Source of the DNA: Blattamonas nauphoetae
Taxonomy: Eukaryota > Preaxostyla > Oxymonadida
Assembly: GCA_033064195.1 (NCBI GenBank)
Contig: JARBJD010000093.1
Coordinates: 124,001-188,000 of the forward strand
Direction of reading: 5' to 3'
Length of the DNA stretch: 64,000 nucleotides
The notes beneath the pieces were generated by a model. The model saw nothing but the letters and a program-made list of their open reading frames with translations. It had not been told where the DNA came from and searched no databases. This document shows positions 9,482-62,601 of this stretch, piece after piece. The number at the start of each line of letters is the position of its first letter. Position 1 is the stretch's first letter. Made by a program: the position numbers and the translations under genes.

Positions 9482-9508
9482 TTTGACAGATTTTGTGAAT
9501 ATGTCTCG

Positions 9509-11706: not shown

Positions 11707-11734
11707 TCCAACTGATTCTGGAATAAACCCTTTA

Positions 11735-11744: not shown

Positions 11745-11766
11745 GAAGTGAACCAGAAAGAAAGAG

Positions 11767-12402: not shown

Positions 12403-12551
12403 CAGGGTCGGATCCTCGCTATGATGGTGATGCTCGACCCATGTAACAGAAGAGGAAGCCTGTGAACGAGATTATATCACTGTTGATCTCCAAAAGTCAT
12501 GGAATAACTATGAACGAGTCAATCTCAAAACGAAATTATGTCCAGATCAAA

Positions 12552-22246: not shown

Positions 22247-22267
22247 TCTGGATGAAAGGGCCGAAGA

Positions 22268-22604
22268 TCTTTTTACCGATTCTCTAACTTTCTCTAGCAC
22301 TCAATATGGACTGAAACTTGGGATTGTGTGTCCTCAGGCCGTTTAGCCTGAAAATCACCTCATTTTTTCCCACCAAAAGTTTGTCTCCTCTCCATGATTC
22401 AGTATGTCTTTTTGTTCGTTTTTCGACATTCCATCATTTATACACATCTATTTTAACTGAGTTTTTGCACCTTGCTGGAGGATCATCGTCATATGTGGAT
22501 ATTTGACGGACAAGATCCTCTCCGTCCACACACTTCGTTTTTATTATCGTTTTGTTCATTTTATCACTTTCTCTTATCATTCTTTCCTTGCTACCCTCCT
22601 TTTC
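22268..22604. repeat. Left arm of a foldback inverted repeat
   Basis: About 337 bp are repeated inverted at 22969-23305 with very few differences, around a ~364-bp spacer. The outer end is TCTTTTTACCGATTCTC. The arm contains a small hairpin (AGGCCGTTTAGCCT). Read outward it is the immediate 5' flank of the membrane-protein gene ending at 22246. Confidence 0.85.
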
Positions 22605-22968
22605 ACAAATCCATTCAGCGTCAAAAACCACTTTGTCTCACTCATTTTGATTTTACTTTTTCCATGCTTATATCCTCCGCCTCCCAAGATTCAGTCGCGT
22701 ATTCTGCACTTAATGCTTTTATTAGCTTCTTTTTGTTTCGTAAATCCACTTTTCATTCTTCTCCATCCTCTAATTCGAAAAAAGGTAGTTGTTTGAGTCA
22801 AAGCAACAGGATCGTGTTGAGGAAAATCGAAATTAGACTGAAAATTTAAGTTTCCCGCGAATTTGAAGAGATCTGAATGAGTTAACGCTTCGTTCTGTTG
22901 ATAGGAGCGTGAGAAATGGAGATCGAAAATGATGAAAAGAAGAGGGTCACGAAGCGATAAGATTGTTG
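22605..22968. other. Spacer of the foldback repeat
   Basis: No gene seen. It is AT-rich with homopolymer runs. Open frames that enter from either arm stop here and look like chance frames. Confidence 0.5.
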
Positions 22969-23305
22969 GAAAAGGGAGGTAGCAAGGAAAGAATGATAAG
23001 AGAAAGTGATAAAATGAACAAAACGATAATAAAAACGAAGTGTGTGGACGGAGAGGATCTTGTCCGTCAAATATCCACATATGACGATGATCCTCCAGCA
23101 AGGTGCAAAAACTCAGTTAAAATAGATGTGTATAAATGATGGAATGTCGAAAAACGAACAAAAAGACATACTGAATCATGGAGAGAAGACAAACTTTTGG
23201 TGGGAAAAAATGAGGTGATTTTCAGGCTAAACGGCCTGAGGACACACAATCCCAAGTTTCAGTCCATATTGAGTGCTAGAGAAAGTTAGAGAATCGGTAA
23301 AAAGA
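22969..23305. repeat. Right arm of a foldback inverted repeat
   Basis: The inverted copy of 22268-22604. Its outer end, GAATCGGTAAAAAGA, lies about 90 bp upstream of the first ubiquitin-like gene. Confidence 0.85.
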
Positions 23306-23394
23306 ACTTTGGCACACCTTACGGAGTCCGTAAGTCTGCATGGTGGGATTGATCTTTGTTCCAGATCGCCATCATTATGTACCAGACTGTAAAC

Positions 23395-30578: not shown

Positions 30579-32894
30579 TTGGACAATTCTGAAATCGAAG
30601 GATTTCTCTTAATATCAGAAACAGACTCCTATCAATCCGTCGTATCAAAGCTGAAACACGAACGGAAAGTGCTTTTCATCGAAGACTTGCACCAACTCGA
30701 ATTAACACTCCCGCAAATCCATCCTCTCTTCGATGCTTCCCCTTTTGGATGTATCACCAATGATATGTCGTTTTTAACACTTTTATCTGGATGGTCACAC
30801 GATATGGAAGATACTCACTCTGAATATATCTCTTTAAAAGGAAAATTGCTCGTCAAAGTCAATCCCATCTTGCATCGGGCATTTCTCGACAATGTCCTCT
30901 CATCTCCTCTTCTGAACCTGAAAGCCGACAATATCCGCCATTCGACAGTGTGTGGATATCCAATATATGACTTGACTCCGCATTGCCAATCAAAAAGCAA
31001 CGATCCAAACAATGACATCGCCAATTTCGTTCCTTCCGACTCAAACATCTTCTCTCATATCTCAAATTTCTTCAATGGTGAAGCAAATCTTCATCCTCCC
31101 TCTTTCCTCCCCACAGACACGCCAAATCGAACCCCAGAAATTCTCAGCCTCCCTGCGGACCCTTTGCACCTCCTCAACCCAGACTTTGTCCGACCTATCT
31201 TTGTCCGCCAATCTTGGCAAGCGAATGCTGCCCAAATTGAGCAATCTTTTGCGTCAGAGCCGACAAATTCGTCTTTTCAGAAGCAGTTTGTCCTCTTCAA
31301 CCATTCTGGCACGGGAAAGTCGATTTTTCTAATTTATCTTCTTCGCCAGCATATCCTTGCTCATCCTGACTCTTTTGTGTGCGTTTTTTGTTCTTATTTT
31401 GTGCCAGTGTGTTGTTTACCACTCCGCTACAGTCGCACCCTTCACAATTCTGAAGGAAAAGGGGAAGAGTGTCTCGATCATCACAGACACGAACGATCAC
31501 TCGATCTCATTGTCTCCCCAACGGAAACTGATTCTCTTAGATTCCGTCCCGTTCATCCAGCCAGTGAATGCTGTCGTCGTCTTCACCCATTCTTCCCAAA
31601 CACTCCACTCGTTCCCCCACAACACACCCGAACAGATTCAGCACGGCCTCACACTCATCCCCGAGCAGCTCTGGTCGAAGGGCGAGATGTCGCTCGCTCT
31701 GTCGCATCTGGACATCCCGTCGCTCATCCTCGTCGACCCACAGCAGCTCGTCTCTCTCCCCCCGTCCATCACTGCCCTGCTTGGGGCATCGTCCATCCAC
31801 ACAAAATCGGGTCTGTTCATCCTCTCCACCCGCTTCCTCTTCGGCGACAATCCACGCAAGCTATTCCATCCACAGCACTGCCTCTCGCACCTCTCGACAA
31901 TCGCTGACAAGATGCTGGACACACTCCTCGTCTCTTCCAACACATCCCTCACCTCTCCATCACCCTTCTTCTCCACCGACACCGACCTCTTCCTCTTTGC
32001 TTCTTATCCTCGTTATGCCAGTCACTTCGCTGAACTCCTCCATGGATACCTGCTCGCTCTGAACGAGGTGCCCAGACAGTACACCCCAATTGCAGCGAGG
32101 ACAGAGTTGGTGGAAGTGTGCTATCGGGAATTCGTGTTCTTCACTCTTCTCGAATCTGATGTCGAACTGATTCTGTCGAAGGTTGGGATGTGTCTGCCAC
32201 CGTGTCCAGCGTTCTTTCCTTCGCTTCGGAGAATCTCGTTCACACCTCACTCTCTCCTCCTCTCCAAGTTTGAGCCGAATGTTCTGTTCACATCTCCCTC
32301 ACCGACATTCCTCCCTCCTCTCTCGTGCCTCTTCACGGTCCACACTTCCCAATCTGACTTCGTCGTCGGAGCGATTGTGTCGATCTCGTCGAATCCGCCG
32401 CCTCCCGACCTCTCCGCCTTCTCCTCGTTCTCTCAGGCGCTCATGCCCTCCTTCCCGCACGTTCCTGTTCTTCTTTGGATTCTTCCTTCATCCACTTTTT
32501 ATGATTTCGGGCGCCATCGGGCAGAAGGGGATAAATCTCCACTCAACGCCCATCATCCCAGCTGTACGATTCTGGAACTGTCGACATCAATCACGGAAGA
32601 AGGCGTGGGCATCTCGTCGGCGATGAGCAGACTTGAAATCAACAACTCTGATTGGATTGAGGAGCAGAAGGCAAAGGAACACGAGTGGCTCCGAAAACCT
32701 GATTCTGACGCCGGTTTATTGTTCTTTTTTTCATCTTTGCAGAGGAAATGGGAGTGTCAGTGTCAGCATCTGGGAATGCGTCGGAGAATGAAAGGGTTTT
32801 GCATGAGTATGAATGGTCTGCAGGAGATCATCAGCCGATCCAAGTGAACATAGAGCGATGCAGACGTATCAGAAAAAGTAGAGCGAAGAAATAA
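30579..32894 (+). CDS. P-loop NTPase of Crinkler/RHS type (tentative), spliced
   Basis: Exon 1 (from 30579 or the preceding frame) ends at 31376. Two tiny introns, 31377-31407 (31 nt) and 32714-32742 (29 nt), keep one frame to a TAA at 32892-32894, about 750 residues. The centre has VRPIFVRQSWQANAAQIEQS, then a Walker A (FNHSGTGKSIFLIYLLRQ) and, after the first intron, VVYHSATVAPF. A Walker B-like strand (RKLILLDSVPF) follows, with VVVFTHSSQT as the sensor strand. This order (conserved Trp region, GxGKS, VVY, hhhhD, SP/TH) is that of the NTPase half of Crinkler and retrotransposon-hot-spot proteins. The rest is not recognised and no nuclease motif is seen. The frame looks whole. The start is uncertain because no ATG fits exactly at 30579, and an upstream exon is likely. 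Confidence 0.5.
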
Positions 32895-33014
32895 TAGTCC
32901 TTTATTTTCTATGCATTATTGAACATTTCATCGATTTGTCAACTGTTTTCCTTTCTTCCTCCTCGACATGTAACCCATATTTTTTTATTTTGACATCTTG
33001 ACCAAATCCAGACA

Positions 33015-34353
33015 ATGCTGTTCGGTCTACTCATCGTTGATACTCTCTGCAGTGATATCATCGACTTGGATACCGCAGCATTTAAGGAAAAAGTCCTGAA
33101 ATCTGACGACACGTACTTTGTCAGTTTGCATCCTCATTTTTTCTGATATTCCGTTGTTCTCCGCAATTTTAGTGCTTCAGACACGATCTTGTGGTGCTTG
33201 CCATCAATCACTTCCAGCTGTTGAGAAGCTTGCAACTACGATGAAGTCCATTGGGATCAATGTTGGAACAGTCATGCTGGACAACAATCCAGAAATTGCA
33301 CGAACATACAAAGCCAACTCTGTTCCGAAATTTCTTCTTTTCCGTCCTGGGATGAAACCCACGGAATATAAATCAGAGCGATCACCGAAGGCGATGGGCA
33401 AATTTATCATGGACAACCAGCTCGGAGGAAAGTATATTTCCGTACTTGACACAGAACCAAAGGTAGAGTCATATTTCAGTGCTGCGAATTCAACATCGAG
33501 AATGCTTCTATTTTCGAAAAAGACGACAATCCCACCGATGTTTAAACAGATCTGCTACAAGCATCGAGCTACCAAAAATTGTGGCTTTATTTCATCATCT
33601 CACTCAACCCTCTCGCAGGTGTCGACAAATCTGGCGGCTCTTGGCACTTTTGACATTGATACTGTTGAATATCCGTCCATCTTCTTCTTCGAAGTTGGAG
33701 ATCAAGTCAAACTCGAAAAATTTGATGGGAATCTGAAATACGACTCACTCGACGAGTACCTGTCGAAAGGAGTCAAATCATCCCCCAAAAAATCACAAAA
33801 ACAGCCCAAAAAACAAGAACAGAAAGAAACTGCTGAACCTGACCCACCAAAGGCGAAGACTGAGAAAGCTGATGCCACTCCTCCCAAACAAACGATTCAT
33901 GAACTTCAGGATCTCACGGAGGAACTTTGGAAAGAAGCACTCAACAAAGAAGAAGTTTGCGTTCTTTTCAGAACCATTTTTCCAGTTTGCCATTATTTTT
34001 GCTGCGCCAGAAGGCTCAAATGAGGAAAAGAGGAAGCGTATCACTGATATAATTGAGCCATACACAAAAGAACGTGTGTTTTCCTCTCATTAATCGTCTC
34101 AGACTTCCACTTCTACGCCACTTCTCAACCGCTCCTTGCTGACCTGCAAGAGCTTGTCCAATCGCTCAATCCGCCGAATAAACCCTGTATCTTTGCTCTC
34201 AACTTAAGGAGGAAGAGAGGAACGATGTGGGTCGACGAGGACGAGGAGCAAAACTGGAAACACGCCAGTCTCTTTTTGGACAGAATTGCAGGCGGTGACG
34301 TTCGGTACACCGCTTTAAAAGCATCAAACGAACCAAAGAACCCTGACTTGTAA
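33015..34353 (+). CDS. PDI/thioredoxin-family ER protein, spliced
   Basis: The ATG at 33015 starts a short signal peptide (MLFGLLIVDTLCS). Introns are at 33124-33172, 33955-33985 and 34074-34102 (49, 31 and 29 nt), and the frame ends at TAA 34351-34353, about 410 residues. Domain 1 is a thioredoxin fold with an active site CGAC (YFVMLQTRSCGACHQSLP), NVGTVMLDNNPEIARTY and the cis-Pro segment SVPKFLLFRPG. Domain 2 is a redox-inactive thioredoxin fold (SRMLLFSKKTTIPPMF ... VEYPSIFFFEVGD). After a Lys/Glu/Pro linker a third, cysteine-poor domain follows (FAIIFAAPEGSNEEKRK). CGAC differs from the usual CGHC of PDI, which should shift its redox potential. It ends EPKNPDL with no clear KDEL signal. 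Disulfide exchange in the ER is the expected role. Confidence 0.75.
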
Positions 34354-34458
34354 TTGTTTTATCCGTTCTTCATTTCTCTTTGCGTCATCATTCAAATCAC
34401 CTCGTTTCTGATTTCCTGTCGGAGTGATTGCTTTCTTTCACAAAGATGCATCGAATAT

Positions 34459-34630
34459 GTTCAGTACGGACCGACCGATCCGGAATATCTGCTGGTCGGA
34501 GTCGTTTGGCGTGCCCCTCACGCTGCTGAACTTGTCCGAGGTGTCGCTTCTCTATTTACTCGGATGGAGGGTTGCGGTGTCGGAGGGAGAGCTGGGGAGG
34601 ATCAAGGCTCAGTGCGAGGAGGCGATGTGA
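34459..34630 (+). pseudogene. 3' end of a cyclin gene, truncated by the palindrome edge
   Basis: The frame encodes FSTDRPIRNICWSESFGV through KAQCEEAM and is identical to the C-terminus of the cyclin gene at 42475-43431. The matching sequence stops at 34459, and the bases to the left are unrelated to that gene. It therefore lacks the first half of the cyclin box and cannot be functional alone. Confidence 0.8.
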
Positions 34631-34927
34631 AGAAGTGAGTTTAACGTTTATTTTGGGGTGTTTTGGGGATAGTTTGTTTTTGGGTTTTTGGTGTTTTGGT
34701 GTTTGAGGATTGTTGAGGGTGGGTGGGAAGGCTTTCTGTTGTTGTATGCTCTCTTGCTGTTTTTGATCAGAAAGAGTTAGTTTGATTGGACTTGATTATT
34801 ACAGCGTTTGATTGGGTTAGTTTGTTGAAAGAGAGCAGTTTGAGAAAGTTGTTGAGGGTTTTGAAGGTGAATTTGGTTCGGGAGTGGGGTGATTTAAGAG
34901 AGGTAAAAAGTGACATGAAATCACTGA

Positions 34928-35001
34928 GCCCACCTAGCTCAGTTTGGTAGAGCGTCCGGCTTTTAACCGGACGGTCGAGGGTTCGAGTCCCTCGGTGGGC
35001 G
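34928..35001 (+). tRNA. trnK-UUU: tRNA-Lys(UUU), left-arm copy
   Basis: A complete 74-nt cloverleaf: acceptor GCCCACC/GGTGGGC, D stem GCTC/GAGC, anticodon stem TCCGG/CCGGA with loop CTTTTAA (anticodon TTT), T stem GAGGG/CCCTC with loop TTCGAGT, and discriminator G. There is no intron and no encoded CCA. Every stem pairs perfectly. It is the mirror copy of the gene at 42104-42177. Confidence 0.97.
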
Positions 35002-36155
35002 AAACTTTTGAACTTTTGCTTGCTTCAACTCTTTTCATTCTTTCCATCCTGTTCGCTTTCTCTTTTTTCTTATCTCCTTCATTCCAATGTCTCTCTCTTT
35101 GTCTGACCCCTATCATCTCTCTTTCTCTTTGCACCTCTCCATAAAACTCTTTTCTCATTCACCCATTCTCTTGATTGTTCTCTTGTTCGTTGTCCACTCC
35201 ATCTTCGTGTGTGAATATCCTCAAATTGGACTATCTCTGTTTGTTCACGTTTTGTCTGTCCTTTCTTTTCTTCATTCGTTCTTGGAATCGCTCTTTTTTC
35301 CACTCCTTTCTCGCTTTCTTTTTGTTCGTCATTTTCCTCTCCATCTGTTCAGATTGTCTTGTTTCCGTGCATTGAGCACAGAATGGACTGTTTGTTGGAA
35401 TGATGGGATGGAGAGTGGATTTGTTGAGCTGAAACAGAATTAGTTTGCTTTTCTGTTCTTTGTCATATTGGTTTCCAGATGAACGATTTCGTGGAATAAT
35501 TGTTCGTTGGACGGGATGGATTGCGGTGTGTGAGTGCTTGTCATGGTTGAGAATTTTGGGTTTTGAGGCTGTATTTGTTGAGTGTGAGGAGATTGTGTTT
35601 TTTAGGTTGTGAAATTGAGATTGTATGACGTGTGCATCAGACAGACGTTTCTTGACTTGTTTTCAGGCCAGTTGGAGGCTGACTGAATGTGGTCTGAGTG
35701 GATGTGTGGAGGTTATTGGGAAAGAAAAGAGTGTTTTGCGAATTGTTTTGTATTGTGCTGAAGACAAGAGCTGCTGGAAATCTCGAAATGCCAATGTGTG
35801 GGATTACTTGCAGTTGAATGAAATTTGAAAGATTTGTTTTGATTTGTTGTTGTTGAGGCGCATTTTGATTCTGAACGATTGTTCGTGTCGCCTTTGTTGA
35901 TGTCTGCCATAACACGTGACTATCTTTCTCGAACACATTCAAGTCGTGTGATTGAGGATGGAGAACTGATTTGGATATCCAGTTCAGGCTGTTCACCCCA
36001 TTCTCAAAATTACCGTTTTTCTCCATCAATTACCATTTCTCCCTTCATCTCTTTCATTTTTTACAATCTCTGGCCATTCTCAAAACAGTTAGAATTAAAA
36101 TTGTGTTGTGAGCTAAGCTGTGAAAATCCTGGAACAAGAAAATAAACAAGGTGAC
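35002..36155. other. Left arm, stretch without recognised genes
   Basis: T-rich on this strand, with one 118-residue hydrophobic frame (35087-35443, LILIVLLFVVHSIF-like) and its reverse. None has a domain I know. The same stretch is mirrored at 40950-42103. I see nothing further that I can support. Confidence 0.4.
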
Positions 36156-38017
36156 TCATTCAGATATCACCCCATAACGAAAAGCAAGGAAACGCTTCAA
36201 TTTATCAAGTTTAGTGGCTTTTCGTTCAATCAGAAGCGTAACCCTGACTGCCTGCCCCATCACGCCTTCCTCTTCTTCCACGTCCGATCCACCCCTTCCC
36301 CTCACACTTGGCCCGACTAATCCCAACAGGTCCGACGATAGATTCATGTTGTATTTCTTCCCCTTCTTCCACTGCTGCGGTCTCTCCTCGTCGCGCACCA
36401 AAAACGAAAGCCAAACAAACACTGTCTTGGAGTCCTTCTTTCCGCATCGCATCGTCATGCCCTCAATATGGTCCTTTCCAATCTGAACAATCCTCCTTCT
36501 GTCGTCTCTGTGCCTCTCCTGTCCTGACCCAATCTCCTCGTTTCTTCCCACTATTCCTTTCTCCTCTAACTCCCGATCAATCTCCACACTTCGTCGAGTC
36601 GTCACTCCCATCAGCTCAATTGTCAATGTGTTCTCACTTAAACGTGCATACGACTTTCCTGTCGCTTCCACAAACGGCTCTTCGTTCAATGACAGTCCAG
36701 CAAGATGCCCCAACACTTGCTTGTCAACCGGCTCTTTGGCTGGTGCTCCATCTATCTGCGCATTGGCCGATTCTGGCTTTGTTCCTTCCCATGTTCTTGA
36801 GCGTCCAGTGTTGGGATAATCTGCCACTTGATTTTGGGAGGCGAAGTGTGGTTGTGCAGTCCCCGTGTGTGTGGGAGTAAGAGGCGGGAAAGACCGATAT
36901 GCCACCGGAGGGCGGAGTTCTCCATAATATGCCGAGAACGACCCCTGTTTCATCTCTGCGCGGTCATTCACTGCTTCGTTCCGTTCATCCTGTTGAGGTG
37001 ATGGATTTTTGGGCAGAAGAGACTCGCCCAAAATGGTGTCATCAACTTGATTGTGATCTGTCCAGGATTCCTGGTTGTCGGATTGAGCGCCCAAATCAGC
37101 ATCAATCAGAGTTTGTTGGAAACACTGACTCGGAAACAAAGCACCGAAGGCGGGCTGGCATGCTGCAGATGGACTCGTAGGGGGAGTAAATGTGGCGGAC
37201 GGAATTTTTGCAAATGATGGTAGATCACAATCATAATACGGATTTTGTGGCGAATCGAAATTCAAAAGCGAAATATCTTGGTCTGACTGGTCTACTGCAG
37301 ATAAACAAGGAGAGGGAGCAAATGTGGCGGACGGGCTTCCCGGAAGTGATGGCGGATAACAATCACAAAACGGATTTTGTCGTAAATACTGGCTCAGATT
37401 GGACATATCTTGGGTGGACTGGTATGATGCAGATGGACTCAGAGGGGAAAGAAACCGAGCGACCGTACCATCTACAAATGACAACACATGCCCTCTTAAG
37501 TTCGATTCTCCTTCTTGGCCAGTTTCATCCAGAATGTCTGAAATGTGATTCTGTGGAAGACATAGGCTTTGGGGGGAGATAAATGGTAGCAGTGTCGTCG
37601 AATCAGTAGAATATGACTTCTGTTCATTATCAGGAGGAGCTCGTTCTGTTTCGTTTTCCTTTGGATCTGTCAGGGAAAATGAATCGTCATTTCGACTCAA
37701 TTCTCCGCAAAAGGGTTGAGAATACAGGTCTATAATGAATTCAGGAGAAAGTACGGGTGCAGATAAGTCCACGTCCGTCATTCCACTTGTTTTGGAGAGA
37801 CTCAAAAATGTGAAGATTGATCTGAAACATAATTATTTTTAATTTGTTTCATTTGGATTCTTCCGAAATTTTCATTTCTGTCCACTTTTCCTCCGTTTAC
37901 CGTACATAAACTCGGAGAATCACTCACCAAACACAGTTTGCCTCGTTTTTTTGCTTTTGGAGATTCAATATTCGCCAAATACAAATCTGTCAAAACAACT
38001 GTGTTCATCTCACACAT
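36156..38017 (-). CDS. Unknown ~580-aa protein, left palindrome copy
   Basis: Exon 1 starts at 38017 (MCEMNTVVLTDLYLANIESP). The intron is 37822-37927 (~106 nt, GTGAGT..CAG), and exon 2 runs to the TGA at 36156. Exon 2 is open for 549 residues: a Ser/Pro/Gln-rich N-terminal half with repeated DQ/SPxxxxFxxxYYDCDLPS-type segments, then a folded C-terminal part of ~200 residues (TLTIELMGVTTRRSVEIDREL, DSKTVFVWLSFLVRDEERPQQWKKGKKYNMNLSSDLLGL, LLIERKATKLDKLKRFLAF). I do not recognise it. At the start of exon 2 this copy has one more T than the right copy (CACATTTTTGAG), which breaks the join with exon 1, while the rest is uninterrupted. Confidence 0.65.
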
Positions 38018-39091
38018 ACCGTCCTGATAAAAAACTTAACTGTCCATTGACTAAATTGTGGTTTTACCAGTCGAGAAAAATTATAAGTTTGTACAGGAAA
38101 TGATCTCTCGAGCACCCATTTCACCCACACTTTTTCATTTGATGATCACACTCATTCAATCAACTCTCAATAAACAATTCACATTCTCTGGGAATGTTCA
38201 CTTTTGAATGTATGGATCATTTTTTCACTAATAAATCACGAGCCATGAGTGATTGGTAAAGAAACCGAACCAAAATGTCGGATTGAAACCATTTTTTCTT
38301 CATATCCAATTCATTATTCTGAAATGAATTTCTCTTTCATCAATAAAGATGTAAAGTAGCCGATCTTTGAAAGGATCCGATCTATATTCCCACTTGTGCA
38401 CCCATATCCAAAAATCTCCGAACCCAAAATTTTTGGGATCCCACTTTTTCTTCGAACATCATCACAACTCCGGGAACAGTTTGAGGTAGAAATCGAACCT
38501 CCAAAATAGGATCCCCAATTGGGGTCTCCTATTTAAGAGTCATTTTTTGTCCCGTTTTTGGCTCCTAAATAGGAGACCCCAATTGGGGATCCTATTTTGG
38601 AGGTTCGATTTCTACCTCAAACTGTTCCCGGAGTTGTGATGATGTTCGAAGAAAAAAGTGGGATCCCAAAAATTTTGGGTTCGGAGATTTTTTTGGATAT
38701 GGGTGCACAAGTGGGAATATAGATCGGATCCTTTTCAAAGATCGGCTACTTTTACATCTTTATTGATGAAAGAGAAATTCATTTCAGAATAATGAATTGG
38801 ATATGAAGAAAAAAATGGTTTCAATCCGACATTTTGGTTCGGTTTCTTTACCAATCACTCATGGCTCGTGATTTATTAGTGAAAAAAATGATCCATACAT
38901 TCAAAAAGTGAACATTCCCAGAGAATGTGAATTGTTTATTGAGAGTTGATTGAATGAGTGTGATCATCAAATGAAAAAGTGTGGGTGAAATGGGTGCTCG
39001 AGAGATCATTTCCTGTACAAACTTATAATTTTTCTCGACTGGTAAAACCACAATTTAGTCAATGGACAGTTAAGTTTTTTATCAGGACGGT

Positions 39092-40949
39092 ATGTGTGAG
39101 ATGAACACAGTTGTTTTGACAGATTTGTATTTGGCGAATATTGAATCTCCAAAAGCAAAAAAACGAGGCAAACTGTGTTTGGTGAGTGATTCTCCGAGTT
39201 TATGTACGGTAAACGGAGGAAAAGTGGACAGAAATGAAAATTTCGGAAGAATCCAAATGAAACAAATTAAAAATAATTATGTTTCAGATCAATCTTCACA
39301 TTTTGAGTCTCTCCAAAACAAGTGGAATGACGGACGTGGACTTATCTGCACCCGTACTTTCTCCTGAATTCATTATAGACCTGTATTCTCAACCCTTTGC
39401 GGAGAATTGAGTCGAAATGACGATTCATTTTCCCTGACAGATCCAAAGGAAAACGAAACAGAACGAGCTCCTCCTGATAATGAACAGAAGTCATATTCTA
39501 CTGATTCGACGACACTGCTACCATTTATCTCCCCAAAGCCTATGTCTTCCACAGAATCACATTTCAGACATTCTGGATGAAACTGGCCAAGAAGGAGAAT
39601 CGAACTTAAGAGGGCATGTGTTGTCATTTGTAGATGGTACGGTCGCTCGGTTTCTTTCCCCTCTGAGTCCATCTGCATCATACCAGTCCACCCAAGATAT
39701 GTCCAATCTGAGCCAGTATTTACGACAAAATCCGTTTTGTGATTGTTATCCGCCATCACTTCCGGGAAGCCCGTCCGCCACATTTGCTCCCTCTCCTTGT
39801 TTATCTGCAGTAGACCAGTCAGACCAAGATATTTCGCTTTTGAATTTCGATTCGCCACAAAATCCGTATTATGATTGTGATCTACCATCATTTGCAAAAA
39901 TTCCGTCCGCCACATTTACTCCCCCTACGAGTCCATCTGCAGCATGCCAGCCCGCCTTCGGTGCTTTGTTTCCGAGTCAGTGTTTCCAACAAACTCTGAT
40001 TGATGCTGATTTGGGCGCTCAATCCGACAACCAGGAATCCTGGACAGATCACAATCAAGTTGATGACACCATTTTGGGCGAGTCTCTTTCTGCTCAAAAT
40101 CCATCACCTCAACAGGATGAACGGAACGAAGCAGTGAATGACCGCGCAGAGATGAAACAGGGGTCGTTCTCGGCATATTATGGAGAACTCCGCCCTCCGG
40201 TGGCATATCGGTCTTTCCCGCCTCTTACTCCCACACACACGGGGACTGCACAACCACACTTCGCCTCCCAAAATCAAGTGGCAGATTATCCCAACACTGG
40301 ACGCTCAAGAACATGGGAAGGAACAAAGCCAGAATCGGCCAATGCGCAGATAGATGGAGCACCAGCCAAAGAGCCGGTTGACAAGCAAGTGTTGGGGCAT
40401 CTTGCTGGACTGTCATTGAACGAAGAGCCGTTTGTGGAAGCGACAGGAAAGTCGTATGCACGTTTAAGTGAGAACACATTGACAATTGAGCTGATGGGAG
40501 TGACGACTCGACGAAGTGTGGAGATTGATCGGGAGTTAGAGGAGAAAGGAATAGTGGGAAGAAACGAGGAGATTGGGTCAGGACAGGAGAGGCACAGAGA
40601 CGACAGAAGGAGGATTGTTCAGATTGGAAAGGACCATATTGAGGGCATGACGATGCGATGCGGAAAGAAGGACTCCAAGACAGTGTTTGTTTGGCTTTCG
40701 TTTTTGGTGCGCGACGAGGAGAGACCGCAGCAGTGGAAGAAGGGGAAGAAATACAACATGAATCTATCGTCGGACCTGTTGGGATTAGTCGGGCCAAGTG
40801 TGAGGGGAAGGGGTGGATCGGACGTGGAAGAAGAGGAAGGCGTGATGGGGCAGGCAGTCAGGGTTACGCTTCTGATTGAACGAAAAGCCACTAAACTTGA
40901 TAAATTGAAGCGTTTCCTTGCTTTTCGTTATGGGGTGATATCTGAATGA
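39092..40949 (+). pseudogene. Unknown ~580-aa protein, right palindrome copy, frame broken
   Basis: The mirror of the gene at 36156-38017. Exon 1 is 39092-39181 and the intron 39182-39287, and here the exon join keeps frame (GKLCL-INLHILSLSKTSG). The frame is then lost twice relative to the left copy. One T fewer in CAACCCTTTGCGG near 39392-39400 leads to a stop. TATCTCCCCAAAG near 39527-39535 has two C fewer. The remaining 470 residues are open and identical in sense, except LLPKNP against LSAQNP near 40090. All but the last are homopolymer differences, which points to sequencing error rather than decay. Confidence 0.65.
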
Positions 40950-42103
40950 GTCACCTTGTTTATTTTCTTGTTCCAGGATTTTCACAGCTTAGCTCACAAC
41001 ACAATTTTAATTCTAACTGTTTTGAGAATGGCCAGAGATTGTAAAAAATGAAAGAGATGAAGGGAGAAATGGTAATTGATGGAGAAAAACGGTAATTTTG
41101 AGAATGGGGTGAACAGCCTGAACTGGATATCCAAATCAGTTCTCCATCCTCAATCACACGACTTGAATGTGTTCGAGAAAGATAGTCACGTGTTATGGCA
41201 GACATCAACAAAGGCGACACGAACAATCGTTCAGAATCAAAATGCGCCTCAACAACAACAAATCAAAACAAATCTTTCAAATTTCATTCAACTGCAAGTA
41301 ATCCCACACATTGGCATTTCGAGATTTCCAGCAGCTCTTGTCTTCAGCACAATACAAAACAATTCGCAAAACACTCTTTTCTTTCCCAATAACCTCCACA
41401 CATCCACTCAGACCACATTCAGTCAGCCTCCAACTGGCCTGAAAACAAGTCAAGAAACGTCTGTCTGATGCACACGTCATACAATCTCAATTTCACAACC
41501 TAAAAAACACAATCTCCTCACACTCAACAAATACAGCCTCAAAACCCAAAATTCTCAACCATGACAAGCACTCACACACCGCAATCCATCCCGTCCAACG
41601 AACAATTATTCCACGAAATCGTTCATCTGGAAACCAATATGACAAAGAACAGAAAAGCAAACTAATTCTGTTTCAGCTCAACAAATCCACTCTCCATCCC
41701 ATCATTCCAACAAACAGTCCATTCTGTGCTCAATGCACGGAAACAAGACAATCTGAACAGATGGAGAGGAAAATGACGAACAAAAAGAAAGCGAGAAAGG
41801 AGTGGAAAAAAGAGCGATTCCAAGAACGAATGAAGAAAAGAAAGGACAGACAAAACGTGAACAAACAGAGATAGTCCAATTTGAGGATATTCACACACGA
41901 AGATGGAGTGGACAACGAACAAGAGAACAATCAAGAGAATGGGTGAATGAGAAAAGAGTTTTATGGAGAGGTGCAAAGAGAAAGAGAGATGATAGGGGTC
42001 AGACAAAGAGAGAGACATTGGAATGAAGGAGATAAGAAAAAAGAGAAAGCGAACAGGATGGAAAGAATGAAAAGAGTTGAAGCAAGCAAAAGTTCAAAAG
42101 TTT

Positions 42104-42177
42104 CGCCCACCGAGGGACTCGAACCCTCGACCGTCCGGTTAAAAGCCGGACGCTCTACCAAACTGAGCTAGGTGGGC
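42104..42177 (-). tRNA. trnK-UUU: tRNA-Lys(UUU), right-arm copy
   Basis: Identical to the tRNA at 34928-35001, in inverted orientation: the same seven-base acceptor, anticodon loop CTTTTAA and T loop TTCGAGT. Confidence 0.97.
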
Positions 42178-42474
42178 TCAGTGATTTCATGTCACTTTTT
42201 ACCTCTCTTAAATCACCCCACTCCCGAACCAAATTCACCTTCAAAACCCTCAACAACTTTCTCAAACTGCTCTCTTTCAACAAACTAACCCAATCAAACG
42301 CTGTAATAATCAAGTCCAATCAAACTAACTCTTTCTGATCAAAAACAGCAAGAGAGCATACAACAACAGAAAGCCTTCCCACCCACCCTCAACAATCCTC
42401 AAACACCAAAACACCAAAAACCCAAAAACAAACTATCCCCAAAACACCCCAAAATAAACGTTAAACTCACTTCT

Positions 42475-43431
42475 TCACATCGCCTCCTCGCACTGAGCCT
42501 TGATCCTCCCCAGCTCTCCCTCCGACACCGCAACCCTCCATCCGAGTAAATAGAGAAGCGACACCTCGGACAAGTTCAGCAGCGTGAGGGGCACGCCAAA
42601 CGACTCCGACCAGCAGATATTCCGGATCGGTCGGTCCGTACTGAACTTGTGGGTAACCAAGGCGCACGAGAGAAGGAGGATGTGGAGATTGTTCCGCAGG
42701 AGAGTGAAGGGGGGGTGGTTGATGTGTTCGGACACGACTTGCTCAAATAGGCACAGAGCATGTGTCGCCTCACTGATGCGAATCTTATAGCCACCTTGAA
42801 GAACACGGAAAGTCTCGTTGGCATAGTGGAGGAAGGCAGGGTAGGGCATGAGCGCAGTCGGAGTGGCAGCTGCGAAATATTTGTTAGAAGAGAGATGTAT
42901 GCAATGTGGGCATGATAATGGAGATATAGAACATTGATCATATAAATTCGGCGATAAATGAAGAGTATCGGCAGAGAAGACTAGATTTGTAGCGAAGAGG
43001 GAACATTGCCGACCAAATGAAGTCGTTATAACGTCACAATCCCAATAAGGGCTCGAGATTTGGGGAAGGGGTTGATGGAGTGAAATATGGCGCGGCACGC
43101 AGAGAGAAGCATGTCGTTTATGGATGAGTTGAGAAATTGAATTCGGAGGAGGATTGATCTCGGGCGGTGTGGGAAAGTGATCAGATCCATACACGTCTTG
43201 ACAGGTGTCCGGTGTGAGAATTGGGCTGTGTATGGTCATGTATCGTGACATGACGGAATGAAGAAACAAAAAATATGTATATTGGGATGATCTTGATAAA
43301 TTTAAAACGACCGACGAAATGATCCCTTTGGGTACATCACCATCAAAATAGGTTTCTCTTTCATAGACACTATAGAGAAAGACAGACTCAGAATATCTAT
43401 TCGGAACAAGCAGGAGATACGATCGTCCCAA
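42475..43431 (-). CDS. Cyclin (PHO80-like cyclin box)
   Basis: Open for 318 residues from 43431, and the ATG at 43249-43251 (MSRYMTIHSPIL) is an alternative start. The C-terminal 140 residues form a cyclin box: a first helix region (PYPAFLHYANETFRVLQ), ATHALCLFEQVVSEHI, NNLHILLLSCALVTHKF, NICWSESFGVPLTLLNLSEVSLLYLLGWRVAVSEGEL. This order matches the PHO80/cyclin-N group that activates cyclin-dependent kinases. The N-terminal half is unusual, and a short intron within 42880-42960 (…TTTCGCAG) is possible although the frame stays open. The last 58 codons (42475-42646) lie in the palindrome arm and are duplicated at 34459-34630. Confidence 0.75.
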   Translation of the reverse strand: MGRSYLLLVPNRYSESVFLYSVYERETYFDGDVPKGIISSVVLNLSRSSQYTYFLFLHSVMSRYMTIHSPILTPDTCQDVYGSDHFPTPPEINPPPNSISQLIHKRHASLCVPRHISLHQPLPQISSPYWDCDVITTSFGRQCSLFATNLVFSADTLHLSPNLYDQCSISPLSCPHCIHLSSNKYFAAATPTALMPYPAFLHYANETFRVLQGGYKIRISEATHALCLFEQVVSEHINHPPFTLLRNNLHILLLSCALVTHKFSTDRPIRNICWSESFGVPLTLLNLSEVSLLYLLGWRVAVSEGELGRIKAQCEEAM

Positions 43432-43473
43432 AAGTCATTCTTTTCACGTTTTCCTCCTTTTCACCACAGCACC

Positions 43474-45561
43474 ATGTTCTCATTCCAATGTATCCGATTT
43501 TCTCCATTCTCAATATTTCCTTTCTCGATTTTTCAACTTCAACTTTCCTTAGCTTCACCGCAACAAAAAACTGTCACACCATTTGGAAAAAAGGAAACCG
43601 TTGGCGATCCGAATGCTGGATTTGCCGAAATGAAACGGACACTCCCAAAAGATCTCATGAAAGATCCAACCTCCTTCCTGGGAAAGAAACAGGCCCTCAT
43701 CGAATATCGCTGTCCTTACATCGTCCAAGTCACAGCCATCGATGAAACTGAGACAGACATTGAAATTACGGAGGAGCATATCTCCACTGACTCCTTAAAT
43801 GAATACCTTGGGCAGGTTAATCGAATGGGATTGATGATTTCGGAAGAAGTTTGTGTTTCCATCGTTTATCCATCCCATTCCCTTATCTTTGGCTATCACT
43901 CGTCCGCTATCATCTAGAAAATCTGGGACATCGTTGGAATTGTGGCATTGTCGTTGAAAAAGCTTTTGGAGAAAGGGTTCATGCACGGCAATCTCAAACC
44001 AAGCAACGTCTTCCTAATGAAAGACTGTGTTGGAAAATTAGGTTTGCTGTGATGCTCCTCTTGCTCTATCTTGATTAGGCGACTTTTTCCTCTGGAATGA
44101 AATCAAGGATCCCATCTCCATCATGGTCGAGAAGAAATCGGAACTGTGTGTCTCCTCCTTTCTTCACATCTCCCTCAGAGGATACCTAAGCCCAGAACAG
44201 ATTAATGGCGAGGGAGAGTTTCCTTCTTTGTCTTCATCTCCCCAGAATAACCATCGCATCCGACATCTACGCTCTCGGCCTCATTATTGCCCAAGCGGTC
44301 GGAAAAGCGCCCCTTTACAAAACAACATCGCTCGACGAACTGAAGGAGAAGTACGCCTCTCCTCCCCCGTCCATCCAGATGACTATGTACAGTGAGAACC
44401 TCCAGAACACGTTGACGGGTATGATCAACAGAGTATGTCGTGTTTCTGTCATTTGATTGCCTCAGACTGCTTCTGAAAGAATCACTCTTGAAAAGATTTT
44501 GGAGATTGAGACCGTCAAGAACAGAATCAACATGTGGGAGACCAGACTCGGAAAGCTGCCTGTGAAGTACACTTACCCAAAGGAACGGCCCCCAAAATGC
44601 TTGCCATTTGTTGTTCTTCATGTTATTGTCGTGCGCTTCAGACACGGACATCCCAGGTCCGTTCACATTCAAAATCGCCAACAAAGACGATTCGTCCGAC
44701 CCACATTACGACGAGTTCACTGACAAGAATTTTAGTGTTAACGAGACGACTGTGACGAAGGAAGTGAACTCCCTTCTGACTACAACGTTCTATCTCGACA
44801 AGCCGTTCACATCGGGAATCGTGTCATGGTGTGTTCCTCATTCGTCTCTCTTTCTCATTCCCGTTTGATATTGTGTCTATCTTTCAATTAATTTGTCTGT
44901 TTTCTCTTATCTTCGTTGTTTCAGCTCGTTTTCGTTCCAACATTCCGAAGGATCGATGTATGTTGGAATCTCGAGCAATCCCATCACCCAAGCAGGCCGC
45001 ACTTGGATTGGCGAGAACCCGGAGTCTCTTCGATACATGTTCAGGTCTGTTCTCTCCTCTGCCATCACCCATTCTTCCAATCTCCTCTCCACCATCTCCT
45101 TATCTATCCTCGTCAACCACTCATTTCAGCGGGAAGGTTATTCAGAATGGAAAATGGGTGAGCGGCTGTGAGCCATTCTCAGCGCAGGACGTAGTCACTC
45201 TCGAAGCGAACATGGAAAAGCGCACGCTTCACATCTTCAAAAGTGATGTATTGCAGCCTGTCTACTTCACCAACATCCCCGAGGAAATTTTGTTCGGTGT
45301 ATGTTTCGTTCTATCTGAAGAACAGAGTTTCAGTCCAACTTTTTCGTTGCTTTCTTTCTCACTCACGATTCGCTTATTCTCGCTCTTACTCGTTCTCTAT
45401 TGATTGGATCTGTCCCATTCTCTCAGTTCTGTCTTGTCCGACCCAAAAGTTCCTGCGAAGTGTCCAGTCTGTGCACTCTCGAGTTTCCGTCTCCCGACAT
45501 CGACCGGGGAGTAGAAAACATGAAAGGCATCGAGTGGGACTATTCTCCACAAAAAGCTTAA
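43474..45561 (+). CDS. Pseudokinase-like protein with SPRY-like downstream exons
   Basis: Several exons joined by short introns. The N-terminal exon (43474-43852) has SPFSIFQLQLSLASP and IEYRCPYIVQVTAIDETETDIEIT. After an intron come LLEKGFMHGNLKPSNVFLMKD, KLGDFFLWNE, GYLSPEQINGEGE and ITIASDIYALGLIIAQAVGKAPLY, which are kinase subdomains VIB to IX. HRD is replaced by HGN and DFG by DFF, so the catalytic base and Mg-binding pattern are altered; pseudokinase is likely. TASERITLEKIL follows. From ~44640 exons encode a SPRY/B30.2-like beta domain (GPFTFKIANKDD, SFSFQHSEGSMYVGISSNP, GKVIQNGKWVSGCEPF, VVTLEANMEKRTLHIF) ending GIEWDYSPQKA at TAA 45559-45561. The join near 44590-44650 is off by one base, so these may be one gene with an error or two genes. 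Confidence 0.6.
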
Positions 45562-51536: not shown

Positions 51537-52094
51537 TTAACAGCCCACCATTTCACCTCCTGAATGAAGATCGGATTGTCGCTCATCACTCCATCTTTTG
51601 TTGTTTAATTGTGGCCTCTGTTCAGCCAATCATCTGTTCCATTTCGTTTTGTTGATTAATATTCATCCAACCTTTCTCAGCCACGGTGCCGAGTATCTGC
51701 CTTGGTCTCGCACATTAAAAGAACTATCAGAAAGTCAGATGGCATAAAACAAGGAAGGCGAAGTGATATGAACCAATGCTAGTGATATGGACAGAATAAT
51801 ATGGCTATTAAACGAGACTCAAGTTGAAGAAATGAATCCTCTTAAACTTAGTTGAGCGATGAACAAGACCCTGGTGAAAGAAGAAGGAGTCAGTTGATAA
51901 TTGGAAAAACGAGAAAGAGATGAAAGTTGATCATAAAACTCAAAGAAGAGAAAGAAAAGAATGTCAGAGATTGATTGAACAGGAACACCATTAATCGAGT
52001 GTCCGGTGTCTGTTTCTCGTAATCATGACTCAGAGAGTCACAATCAGTATATATACGCCCATATGTCCACACCAATAATCCCGAGGTTCGCGTG
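51537..52094. other. Intergenic between the GYF gene and the membrane-protein cluster
   Basis: No supported gene. Only short frames are present. The last part leads into the leader repeat. Confidence 0.4.
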
Positions 52095-52326
52095 AACAGA
52101 GAAAACTGGCTCTACAATGGGCGAATAAAAAGTGTTGTTTTTGGCTCCAATAAGGCGCTGGCGATTGTGGCATACATTGGCTGATGTTCATCAATACTTT
52201 ATGAGATGCATAGTTACAATAAAAGCGGGAACAGATTGCTCAGTGAAGTGAGTGTGTGAACTTACATTCGATCAAACCATTGTTTCAATTCTGGGACGTT
52301 GGAATATCTGATATCTCGCTCGTGTT
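52095..52326 (+). repeat. Leader repeat upstream of membrane-protein genes, copy 1
   Basis: This segment (…GGCTCTACAATGGGCGAA…GAGATGCATAGTTACAATA…GTGAACTTACATTCGATC) recurs at 55000-55228 and 62378-62601, each time just before the start of a member of the membrane-protein family. It contains remnants of the 3' part of the MDSNTLEV frame and the gene's 5' flank. Confidence 0.75.
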
Positions 52327-54614
52327 ATGCCAAGAAATCGAAAAGATTCAACTGGTATTTTTTCCGTGATTTTCAGATGGTCTAGTTCGCTCAACTGATA
52401 AGGACCACCCTGGGTGTGCTTTATTTCCTCTTCGACATGTAACTCGTCAGAAACACTGATTTGACGGAAGAATTAAAAGAAGGGAGAAGACCACTGTTCA
52501 GAGATGGGTGTAAAGCCGTTCTTCTCTTTCTGATTGTTCCCCTTCTGTTGTACATCCCCATTCTCGTTACTCGAGCGATGACCCAAGTAAAGAACGGAAT
52601 CACTCCTTTCAATCCCTTCCCGTGGTTTCTCTCAGACTTTTTCATGTGTGTGATCATCATCTGTCTCATCATCCTCGCCATTTTCTTTCTTGGACCGGGT
52701 GATGCCAAAAAAGCCAAACTGTGTGCTGTCATCGCGTCCATTTCTGTTCTTCTGATCGTCCTCTTCGAACTGTCCGCAAACCGCCGCTTCATCAACCAGC
52801 TCTTCATCGACGCAATGTCTTCTCAACAATCAGACAACCAACAAACCAGTCCTGACCAACCGCTGAGTCCTGACGAAGTGAAACAACCAGCGACCGATCC
52901 AGCAACGGAACCCTCAAACGATGCGACTGCTCCAAATCAAAGCGACAAACGATCTGCGGGGCAAGTGGAGCACGACAACATACTCGCTCTTGTCAAGCAA
53001 GTTGCCAAAACAGTGCCAAACTTCCACCCGACCACAGTCCGCCGTTCCATCCAAAGACTCTCCATCGACCCAAACACACCAGTCCCTCCACACGCTCGCA
53101 TCCCAATCAAGACCCTCGTTGTTGCTCAGCTTCTTCTCCTTGTTGCCTTCCCTCCTTATTTCGAGAAATCAAGTACCGACTCTGTTCTGCACGATGTCGT
53201 GGATGTGGTGCTTCGGTTGTTTGTCTGTCTGCTTCCAACCATCACCGCTCTGAACGGATTGCGTGTGTCCATTTCTCCTTTTTGCTTCATCTGTTTCCTC
53301 TTTCTTTTCACAGAAATCATCCGTGTTCGTTGGATCTTCATTCCTCTCCCTCTTCTTGTCTTCCCTCTTCTGCGGATTGACAAGGCGACTCAACCTTACC
53401 GCAAAATCGAAGGGATCATCTCAATCCTTGGTGCTCCGATCATCGTTCTCTACGTCGGTGTCTTCTATCTCATCGGCGCGTTCATTGCCGACGGTGTCCT
53501 CTCGTGGTCGTTCAGTGTCTCGACGTTTGGGATAATAGTTCCCATCCTCGTTGACATGGTGCTTTTGTTGATTGAAGAAGTATGGCTGCCCATTCTTGAT
53601 TCGGTAACAGTGGAAGACACATGTTACAACGTTCTTCTCTGTCTGATCTGCACCCCTTTCATTATCCTCCCCTTCGCCGTCATTGAACCCTTGTTTCAAA
53701 TTGTGAACGGATTCACTCCATTGAATCCCTTCCCCTGGTTTTACTTTGACAATCTCATCTGCGTCATCATCATCTCTCTCATCATCCTGTCCATTTTCTA
53801 TTTTGGACCGGGTGAGGTTAAAAAAGCCAAACTGTGCGCTGTCATCGCGTCAGTTTCTGTTCTTCTCATCTTCCTCTTCGAAATGAACGCCAACGCCCGT
53901 TTTATCGACCAGCTCTCCATCGACGCAATGTCCTCTCAACAATCAGACAACCAACAAACCAGCACTGACCAACCGCTGAGTCCTGACGAAGTGGAACAAC
54001 CAGCGACCGATCCAGCAACGGAACCCTCAAACGAGACAATTTCTTCAGCACAAAGCGATGAACGATCTGCGAGGCAAATCGAACAAGATTATCTCCTCGA
54101 AGTTGCCAAGAAGATTTCTGAAACGATGCCAAACATAGAACTGACAACAATCCAGCGCTTCATGAAACAACTCTCCGTCGACAGAAACGCACCACTCCCT
54201 CCACGCTCTCGCATCCCAATCAAGACGCTCGTTGTTGCCGAGATTCTTCTCCTCGTCTTCATCGCTTCTGACTTCCACAATCATGTCGACTCCTGTCTGA
54301 GCGCTGCTGCGTATGTGGTCTTTGTGTTGTGTGTCTGTGCCATTCCTGTTGTGATCGCTCTGATCGGAATGCGTGTGCTCATCTCTCTTCTTTTCATTCA
54401 TTCACTTTCTCTCTCTTCCACAGAACTCATCCATGTTCCTCTGTGGGTGCTTCTCGTCGTCGGTGGAATTGGTGTGTTGTCGGGGATGTTCGTGTTTGGG
54501 TCGTATCGTGTCTCGGTTGAGATGCATGTCGAGCGCAGAGTGCGTCCAGACGACAGCGACACATCTCCCACAAAACACGTCCGGAATTCCGTTGAGCGAG
54601 AACCGGAGGACTAG
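52327..54614 (+). CDS. Polytopic membrane protein, two-unit member (family copy 1)
   Basis: The ATG at 52327 (MPRNRKDST) fits three tiny exons: introns 52355-52376 (22 nt) and 52414-52450 (37 nt) give MPRNRKDSTDGLVRSTDKDH followed by PGNTDLTEELKEGRR. Introns of 51 nt at 53263-53313 and 54373-54423 are in phase and flanked by identical splice context. The body is two homologous halves of ~350 residues, each with a first TM pair (LFLIVPLLLYIPILV; NPFPWFLSDFFMCVIIICLIILAIFFLGPGDAKKAKLCAVIASIS), a hydrophilic loop (SSQQSDNQQTS.DQPLSPDE) and further TM segments (TLVVAQLLLLVA, VVDVVLRLFVCLLPTITALNGL, WIFIPLPLLVFPLL, IIVLYVGVFYLIGAFIADG). The function is unknown. The stop is TAG at 54612-54614. Confidence 0.8.
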
Positions 54615-54711
54615 AACGAGACGGGGTTAATTGATCTCAGTCTTGATGTAACGTGAGAATCCTTCCACTTCACAATTCCATCTGTCTCCATGTATCGACA
54701 CATTTCCCAAA

Positions 54712-55017
54712 ATGGATAGTAACACACTCGAAGTGACATTGTCATCGATCCCAAACTTCAACGATTCGGACACAGGGCGTTATCTTTTCGTTTCTCAATT
54801 TCCTGCAACTCTTCACAAGACCATCCTATCCATCCCCTCTTCCGCACAACAAACCTCGACCACACTAAAAGTCCGTCACACACTCCACACCAGTTCATCC
54901 AACATTCCCACTCCTTCCTCACTCATCATCATTCAGAGTGCCACAACCAGCACAGATACCCCGTGCGTCCACACTAAGAATCTCGATGTTCCCATCAACG
55001 GAGAAAACACGCTCTGA
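54712..55017 (+). CDS. MDSNTLEV protein, copy 1 (short, probably truncated)
   Basis: 101 residues, MDSNTLEVTLSSIPNFND..., rich in Ser/Thr, ending VPINGENTL. It is colinear with the longer copy at 62123-62533, which continues where this one stops (GENWLYNGRRK...). The sequence after the stop is still homologous, so this copy is shortened by a nonsense change. It lies directly downstream of a membrane-protein gene, as does copy 2, so the two were duplicated as a block. No domain is recognised. Confidence 0.45.
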   Translation: MDSNTLEVTLSSIPNFNDSDTGRYLFVSQFPATLHKTILSIPSSAQQTSTTLKVRHTLHTSSSNIPTPSSLIIIQSATTSTDTPCVHTKNLDVPINGENTL

Positions 55018-55228
55018 GATGGGCGAATGAAATGTGGAGAGTATTGCTCCAATAAGTCTCTGGCGACCATGGCATACATCGACTCATGTTCGTCTATCCT
55101 TGATGAGATGCATAGTTACAATAAAAGCGGGAACAGATTGCTCAGTGAAGTGAGTGTGTGAACTTACATTCGATCAAACCATTGTTTCAACTCTGGGACG
55201 TTGTAACATCCGACTTCTCGCACTTTTT
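55018..55228 (+). repeat. Leader repeat upstream of membrane-protein genes, copy 2
   Basis: Homologous to 52095-52326, including GATGCATAGTTACAATAAAA and GTGAACTTACATTCGATCAA. Confidence 0.75.
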
Positions 55229-56802: not shown

Positions 56803-57101
56803 ATAAATAAGGGGCTGGCCTCGATCAACAAAGATTAAACAGAAATAAGTTTTATCTGTTAGTAAAATCCCATCAAAGGAACGTAACGTACACAATGATG
56901 GTTCTGCCCCGAAGGGCTGTTGATGGGGAAAAAAAAAGGTATTGCCATTTGGCTTTTACCCAGAAATCCCTAACAGGGAACAAAAACTGGGAGAACAGGG
57001 TCGAAAACGACCCGTCAAGTGAAACAAAGGATCACTTGACAGTGAGCCAACCACAGGTGTGTATCAGGACTACTCGTTGATGAGCCCGGTTTGTTGTAAA
57101 A
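56758..57101. mobile_element. MITE-like unit of ~344 bp with inverted ends
   Basis: The left end TTTTACAACAAACCGGG... (56758) is mirrored at 57085-57101 as CCCGGTTTGTTGTAAAA. The ends are therefore terminal inverted repeats of at least ~17 bp, extending imperfectly through CATCAACATACGAG / CTCGTTGATGAG. The interior has no coding frame of note. The bases from 56775 to 56828 (…AACATACGAGAGAGTGCCGTG…GGGGCTGGCC) also occur inverted at 61177-61240, so this unit and the larger element to its right share end sequence. It sits in the second unit of a membrane-protein gene. Confidence 0.6.
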
Positions 57102-62025: not shown

Positions 62026-62122
62026 AACGAGACGGGGTTAATTGATCTCAGTCTTGATGTAACGTGAGAATCCTTCCACTTCGCCATTCCATCTGTCTCC
62101 ATGTATCGACACATTTCCCAAA

Positions 62123-62533: not shown

Positions 62534-62601
62534 ACTTATTTTCGATCAAACCATTGTTTCAACATTGTGACATCGGTTTTTTCTAGTATCTCGCTCATTT
62601 T

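Follow-up and report, generated by a model that had tools for sequence, protein, structure and literature searches.

An 8.2-kb palindrome with a transposon terminal-repeat hairpin at its apex in Blattamonas nauphoetae: a possible young fold-back inverted duplication

We analyzed a 64,000-nucleotide (nt) stretch of the genome of the oxymonad Blattamonas nauphoetae (hereinafter the window; GenBank assembly GCA_033064195.1, contig JARBJD010000093.1, positions 124,001 to 188,000 of the forward strand), which contains an 8.2-kb near-perfect palindrome whose apex is a natural imperfect hairpin from the terminal inverted repeat (TIR) of a transposon. One outer edge of the palindrome appears native, whereas the other cuts through a cyclin gene and joins it to different DNA. 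The explanation that we favor, while according it slightly less than an even chance, is a young fold-back inverted duplication of the break type that later broke at position 34459 and was joined to other DNA; together with an origin by replication, it makes the existence of the palindrome in the living cell on balance probable. New here are the hairpin origin of the apex and the sense of its loop, the distinction between a native and a broken edge, the lack of convincing substitutions between the arms outside the stem, and the inverted duplications found at other tRNA loci. If real, this would be a palindrome in a reference genome with a legible birth scar, in which the side that served as template can be told from its copy and both the priming hairpin and the site of breakage can be named, and the fold-back mechanism of human chromosomes would also operate in an oxymonad, with the primer hairpin supplied by a transposon terminal repeat.

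Structure of the palindrome

The two inverted arms and the 22-nt loop between them, first noted in an original prediction made from the window sequence alone, were borne out at the same coordinates by a repeat search and by gapped alignment (Table 1). The longest ungapped inverted block in the repeat search spans 3119 nt (34459-37577 / 39528-42646), and shorter blocks continue from it to the apex; no chance expectation was computed, as 4-kb arms at such identity were taken to need none. Gapped alignment of arm against arm yields 27 differing columns in total: the loop centre accounts for 7, mismatches in the stem (38536/38565 and 38540/38561) for 2, a single block (37010-37016) for 6, and homopolymers for 12, the last amounting to 10 homopolymer-length indels when counted as events. 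Identity is complete over the outer 2551 bases of the arms (34459-37009), and the differences lie 1540, 979, 841, 746, 349, 331, 259, 198, 181, 141, 106, 14, and 10 nt from the apex.

Parts of the arm recur 54 kb away on the same 242-kb contig in a third, diverged copy (C831:214803-220436, the window being C831:124001-188000), which has its own tRNA-Lys and truncated cyclin 3' end; it is 94% identical over 1.6 kb and then continues in rearranged pieces. Throughout block 37010-37016 this copy agrees exactly with the right arm, so the left arm is probably wrong there. Its run lengths equal those of the right arm at the G run at 37571 and those of the left arm at 37804, with 37709 not settled; the longer runs of the right arm at 38352 and 38444 are favored by the transposon relatives described below, and the other inner sites have no clear reference. 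Because of these comparisons, most of the arm differences look like residual homopolymer errors, and the two stem mismatches carry the letters expected of native 5' and 3' stems. Since, over 1589 aligned bases, 91 substitutions (5.7%) separate the third copy from the left arm while the arms show no convincing substitution between them outside the stem, the palindrome is, on this sequence comparison, much younger than the duplication behind the third copy, or else its arms have been kept alike by gene conversion.

Over its final 200 bases, each arm consists of sequence from a repeat family, all eight short copies of which that were read (L014-L021) are elements of ~1.3-1.4 kb with ~550-bp terminal repeats; a longer member of 8.5 kb (L022, C35:233320-241823) shares their ends. 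The one 276-aa open reading frame (ORF) of the family that was scanned has no Pfam match above the cut-off. Running through the loop, the relic in the window aligns in one continuous sense to positions 1-240 of the 555-558-bp terminal repeat, with 78% identity to L022. The original prediction that the palindrome is not a typical mobile element thus holds for most of the arms, but it overlooked this transposon terminal-repeat relic at the apex. At the equivalent spot the relatives display an imperfect hairpin with a 5' stem (...GGGGTCTCCTATTTAGGAG), a loop, and a 3' stem (GGCTCC.AAATAGGAG), followed by a differing continuation; in the window, similarity to the transposon reaches as far as the end of the 3' stem (38575) and there gives way to the mirror copy of the left arm. 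As L022, L017, L023, and a relative on C37 carry the imperfect hairpin without a fold-back, the short inverted sequences would pre-date the event. The loop letters match these relatives when read from the left arm and mismatch them when read from the right arm, which therefore points to the left arm as the template side and the right arm as the copy. Folded as single-stranded DNA, the apex of the window reaches -20 kcal/mol (z -9.48), a value that includes the copied stem.

Searches of the genome, covering 88.31 Mb in 837 contigs (the published assembly comprises 88.54 Mb in 879 contigs, with a GC content of 44.96%, a range into which that of the window falls; PMC10703272), recovered the complete fold-back apex pattern at one place, the apex described here. 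The stem followed by ACCCC occurs at 26 places, of which 25 lie away from this apex; 22 of those 25 group into 11 minus/plus pairs (ten 0.96-0.99 kb apart and one 1.5 kb), as expected of 5' stems in paired terminal repeats, an arrangement confirmed at the one pair that was read (C37). The looser stem pattern occurs at 286 places.

The outer edges differ in kind. The cyclin 3' end, which the original prediction listed among the contents of the palindrome, is present in both arms, and the ORF is whole on the right only. Its match to PF08613 (residues 238-300) scores 21 bits, equal to the curated cut-off of 21, and the right arm edge falls after residue 262, inside this match; because both the ORF and the match straddle the edge, we take it as native. 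Homologues of this ORF in the protein collection numbered none at E <= 0.001 among 803 candidates. On the left, the cyclin coding sequence is cut and joined to unrelated, single-copy DNA at 34458/34459, with no shared base just outside the edge and 105 nt past the stop of a thioredoxin-like gene. The two flanks are different sequences, each of which at high identity matches only itself in the assembly; the left one has two further weak matches on C790 (69% and 79%), and the other matches of the right one comprise only 47 query bases that lie within the arm. The letters GTTCAGTACGG at the left edge resemble a nanopore adapter, yet on the right they form part of the cyclin coding sequence, and an adapter-derived junction was set aside.

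Proposed origin by fold-back

The original prediction had left open a real palindrome, an inverted duplication through amplification or a break, and an artefact. The anatomy, with a natural transposon hairpin at the apex, differing single-copy flanks, and a native edge opposite a broken one, favors a fold-back duplication; the artefact is weakened but keeps some probability. We propose that the ancestral order was cyclin, tRNA-Lys, the 558-aa ORF, and the transposon relic, and that a break or the exposure of an end just past the relic would have allowed the 3' strand to fold on the relic's own hairpin, the 3' stem ending at 38575 pairing with the 5' stem at ~38525-38542. The folded strand would then be extended on itself, copying the arm outward through the tRNA, the cyclin gene, and further, and replication of the hairpin-capped end would give a mirror-image chromosome, one side of which would have broken in mid-cyclin (34459) and been joined to the present left-flank DNA. 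That the broken side is the template side is no obstacle, since either side of a symmetric mirror-image chromosome may break. The assembled sequence itself displays the palindrome, its hairpin apex, the loop sense, and the native right and truncated left edges; from these we infer that the palindrome exists in the living cell and that a break, a mirror-image intermediate, and a joining followed one another in this order.

This organization is reminiscent of the human fold-back inverted duplications that accompany a terminal deletion or translocation (Hermetz et al. 2014; PMC3907307), which, in the available portion of that account, likewise combine two inverted copies, a spacer that is itself not inverted, short inverted sequences bordering it, and one end joined to unrelated DNA. 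All four are found here, in the form of the arms, the 22-nt loop, the older hairpin of the relic, and the left edge. However, the tabulated human spacers range from 700 bp to 70 kb, whereas the one in the window is 22 nt; furthermore, a transposon terminal repeat supplies the primer hairpin here, the loop sense identifies the truncated side as the template, and the palindrome is known from an assembled sequence. Another parallel is offered by the inverted Ty pairs of yeast chromosome IV, which persist in the chromosome as inverted repeats of several kilobases, ~25-66 bp and 100 bp apart (PMC3616911, available text); in those the arms are transposons, whereas here the arms are host genes and the transposon is confined to the apex. 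Long palindromes are reported to be unstable in every setting into which they are brought and to be rare among natural genomes, and the spacers at yeast junctions to enlarge by secondary rearrangement (both PMC10766186, in the part available). No paper on palindromes in Blattamonas was found in the literature searched, and the word "amplified" was not found in the main text of the genome paper so far as available (PMC10703272).

Several observations weigh against a fold-back in the cell. The palindrome is known as a feature of the assembly. The arm differences, most of them probable errors, crowd towards the apex, and there is no convincing substitution between the arms outside the stem, as would also be the case in an artefact. 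A search of 837 of the 879 published contigs recovered no arm copy with the lost continuation of the relic beside it, and the flanks (32500-34458 and 42647-44500) hold no transposon remnant at E <= 1e-3 against the 15 loci L014-L028, leaving no trace of that continuation there either. The similarity of the third copy begins ~35-50 bases inside the left-arm edge, and the fold-back model leaves its proximity to the break unexplained. Moreover, the native hairpins of two relatives fold weakly on their own (-12.4 and -9.6 kcal/mol, z -1.55 and -1.12), the predicted fold of the second being another than the apex hairpin; this modelled weakness speaks somewhat against easy spontaneous priming.

A fold-back at a chromosome end, another possibility raised at first, fails for the ends of this contig, because the palindrome lies 158 kb and 75 kb inside them and the end sequence read (2.0 and 4.0 kb) contains no TTAGGG or CCCTAA; we take TTAGGG to be the telomere repeat of this organism. 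Among eight other contig starts (5 kb each, E <= 1e-20), seven have no inverted repeat and one (L044) has a spaced one at 75%; this sample, in which L040 is partly N, is too small for a rate.

Alternative explanations

The foremost rival, which we regard as unlikely but in need of serious consideration, is a library or assembly artefact, in which the transposon hairpin let a single strand snap back on itself during end repair, or a chimeric read arose in some other way, and Canu incorporated the product. The protocol leaves room for this: as given in the available text, R9.4 nanopore reads sheared to ~20 kb were processed with Porechop, assembled with Canu 1.7.1 under the permissive setting corMinCoverage 0, and polished with Nanopolish and Pilon (PMC10703272). 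The effective identity of the arms, with differences that are mostly homopolymer lengths near the apex, fits such an origin, as does the inverted duplication at the start of contig C712 discussed below, whose differences are likewise mostly homopolymer indels, with errors rising towards the contig end. However, the flanks are different and each is without a high-identity match elsewhere, and therefore one fold-back read cannot make this contig: a second false join at 34458/34459 would be needed, or two real near-identical loci folded together at the hairpin. The contigs searched yielded neither a further full or near-identical copy of the arm that continues differently past the relic nor an alternative allele lacking the palindrome. 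Moreover, the contig extends well beyond the palindrome in both directions, rather than ending at it or repeating the same flank. The left junction lacks an adapter signal (8.1% of 4000 random positions score at least as high, and the score at the centre lies below the background mean), and the fold-back pattern occurs once against 286 places with the loose stem. A drop in nanopore accuracy is also reported at genuine inverted duplicates, according to the accessible part of PMC7229812; no paper on nanopore fold-back chimeric-read artefacts with inverted sequence was found in the literature searched. Should the artefact be the answer, the locus would be a useful warning that a snap-back primed by a hairpin can persist within a contig through nanopore assembly and polishing.

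Less probable still is that a replicating strand switched templates at a stalled fork, with the chromosome unbroken, by microhomology-mediated break-induced replication (MMBIR) or a process like origin-dependent inverted-repeat amplification (ODIRA). A strand from the left flank would have switched into mid-cyclin, copied the arm up to the relic, snapped back on the hairpin, recopied the arm, and rejoined the native right arm. Both neighboring genes are apparently intact, as for a local insertion, and tRNA genes are counted among replication-pause sites in the text available of PMC3616911. The simple form, with two switches and a start in the native right arm, is, however, contradicted by the loop sense, so that this three-step form is needed. 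Furthermore, yeast ODIRA amplicons are inverted triplications with two palindromic junctions (PMC10766183, PMC10766186, as far as available), whereas in the window the arm is present in full twice, with a single junction, and the third copy is 94% identical over 1.6 kb.

Finally, an 8.2-kb fold-back or miniature inverted-repeat (MITE-type) mobile element with the arms as its terminal repeats is hardly credible: despite the terminal-repeat relic at the centre and the abundance of long-TIR elements in this genome, the transposon end sits at the apex, away from the outer edges, the right outer edge lies within a continuous host ORF, which already contradicts this reading, and no second copy of the unit with the same ends was found in the contigs searched.

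Inverted duplications at other tRNA loci

The search with the arm had also matched other tRNA genes arranged in inverted pairs. A search with the tRNA family, in which 63 of 4071 candidates were scored, gave 46 matches, among which 11 neighboring pairs lie within 10 kb of each other, 10 inverted and one direct. The inverted excess has a two-sided p of 0.012 if the pairs are assumed independent, which they are not, as two loci supply five of them; one of the inverted pairs, C667, also combines unlike tRNAs. Seven loci were fetched because they held pairs, and they therefore provide no rate; six carry inverted duplicates of like tRNAs, with wider spacers than in the window (Table 1). The seventh, C667, was dropped from the series, being a Met beside a Thr tRNA with no shared flanks. 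The duplicates at C235, C24, C14, C223, and C34 have sharp edges, and several have near-identical arms.

At C14, 30 of the 31 substitutions fall in the innermost 95 columns, and most of that arm is thus nearly identical. The 81 substitutions at C34 are spread along the arm, except for ~400 columns without any, and because they are scattered C34 cannot be an assembly artefact; a substitution-free patch of this kind in a diverged arm is what gene conversion would leave. At C712, homopolymers account for 23 of the 28 indel events in the inner 4.8 kb, which has 5 substitutions, and 39 of the 46 substitutions fall in the outermost kilobase, the agreement worsening towards the contig end. Lying at the very start of its contig, this duplication may be real or a contig-end fold-back artefact. 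The transposon family of the window has no match at E <= 1e-6 at C34, C235, C223, C24, or C14.

From the arms at these loci, inverted duplication around tRNA genes has evidently happened more than once in this genome, a recurrence that counts in favor of the palindrome being real. A broader reading, which we put forward as doubtful, is that tRNA genes seed inverted duplication, with stalled or broken forks folding back on nearby short hairpins, and that tRNA copy number has thereby grown genome-wide; the window would then be the youngest product and the other loci later stages, with larger spacers and shrunken or diverged arms. If the palindrome is real, the tRNA loci would form a natural series on the decay of palindromes into spaced inverted repeats. 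Two observations speak against this pattern: C224:337588-347184 holds a tRNA-like gene six times in direct orientation, on the plus strand throughout and at ~1.9-kb spacing, which argues against a purely inverted mode, and, by eye, among the matches listed of 154 places, no real-looking tRNA gene has a like copy within 10 kb.

Two tRNA-like repeats were encountered in these searches. One, spread genome-wide (TAGCTCAGTGGGTATGTTCC..., e.g., C324:10681, C391:9441, and C371:27273) often lies near contig starts on the minus strand and is perhaps subterminal, as judged by eye among the matches listed. The second (TGGCCTAGCGGTAGCC...) is nearly invariant among the matches listed, genome-wide, and is perhaps an element like a short interspersed nuclear element (SINE).

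Other features of the window

Both the tRNA-Lys and the long ORF are present in each arm, in agreement with the original prediction of a tRNA and a protein gene carried twice. A 2-nt length difference shifts the N-terminal part of the right copy of the ORF into another frame. For the thioredoxin-like gene of the left flank, two short introns and the gene start are modelled, the start tentatively.

Table 1. Features of the palindrome and its surroundings (window positions), and inverted duplications at other tRNA loci (contigs, with arm length, identity, and spacer)
Feature	Position	Strand	Remarks
Thioredoxin/PDI-like gene, left flank	33100..34353	+	PF00085, E 5.2e-11; apparently intact to stop
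Left arm	34459..38539	+	Template side by loop sense; outer edge truncates cyclin ORF
Truncated cyclin ORF 3' end, left arm	34459..34630	+	Mirror of 42475-42646
tRNA-Lys(TTT), left copy	34928..35001	+
558-aa ORF, left copy	36156..37832	-	Open; no Pfam match at E <= 0.01
Relic of transposon terminal inverted repeat	38344..38575	+	Through loop; mirror on right to ~38762
5' stem of natural imperfect hairpin	38525..38542	+	Limits approximate
Loop, 22 nt	38540..38561	+	Transposon sense if read from left arm
3' stem of natural hairpin	38559..38575	+	Transposon similarity ends, copy of left arm begins
Right arm	38562..42646	-	Mirror copy by loop sense; outer edge continuous with cyclin ORF
558-aa ORF, right copy	39438..40949	+	N-terminal part out of frame
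tRNA-Lys(TTT), right copy	42104..42177	-
Cyclin ORF, stop to stop	42475..43434	-	Runs across right arm edge
Lys CTT inverted duplication	C235 (L046)		846 nt, 99.9%; spacer 4.7 kb
Lys CTT inverted duplication	C24 (L047)		447 nt, 99.3%; spacer 1.7 kb
Ile inverted duplication	C14 (L049)		902 nt, 96.5%; spacer 0.26 kb
Arg inverted duplication	C223 (L052)		594 nt, 99.7%; spacer 3.1 kb
Asp inverted duplication	C712 (L050, L051, L054, L055), 3-6535 / 7492-14096		6.6 kb, 97.9%; spacer 956 nt
Tyr inverted duplication	C34 (L056-L057)		1665 nt, 95.0%; spacer 6.9 kb

Elsewhere in the window, a 403-nt inverted repeat (22260-22662 / 22911-23313) with 92% complementary copies 248 nt apart is perhaps a short element with long TIRs, and two clusters of diverged direct repeats (3617-11745 and 52058-63579) are probably local gene families.

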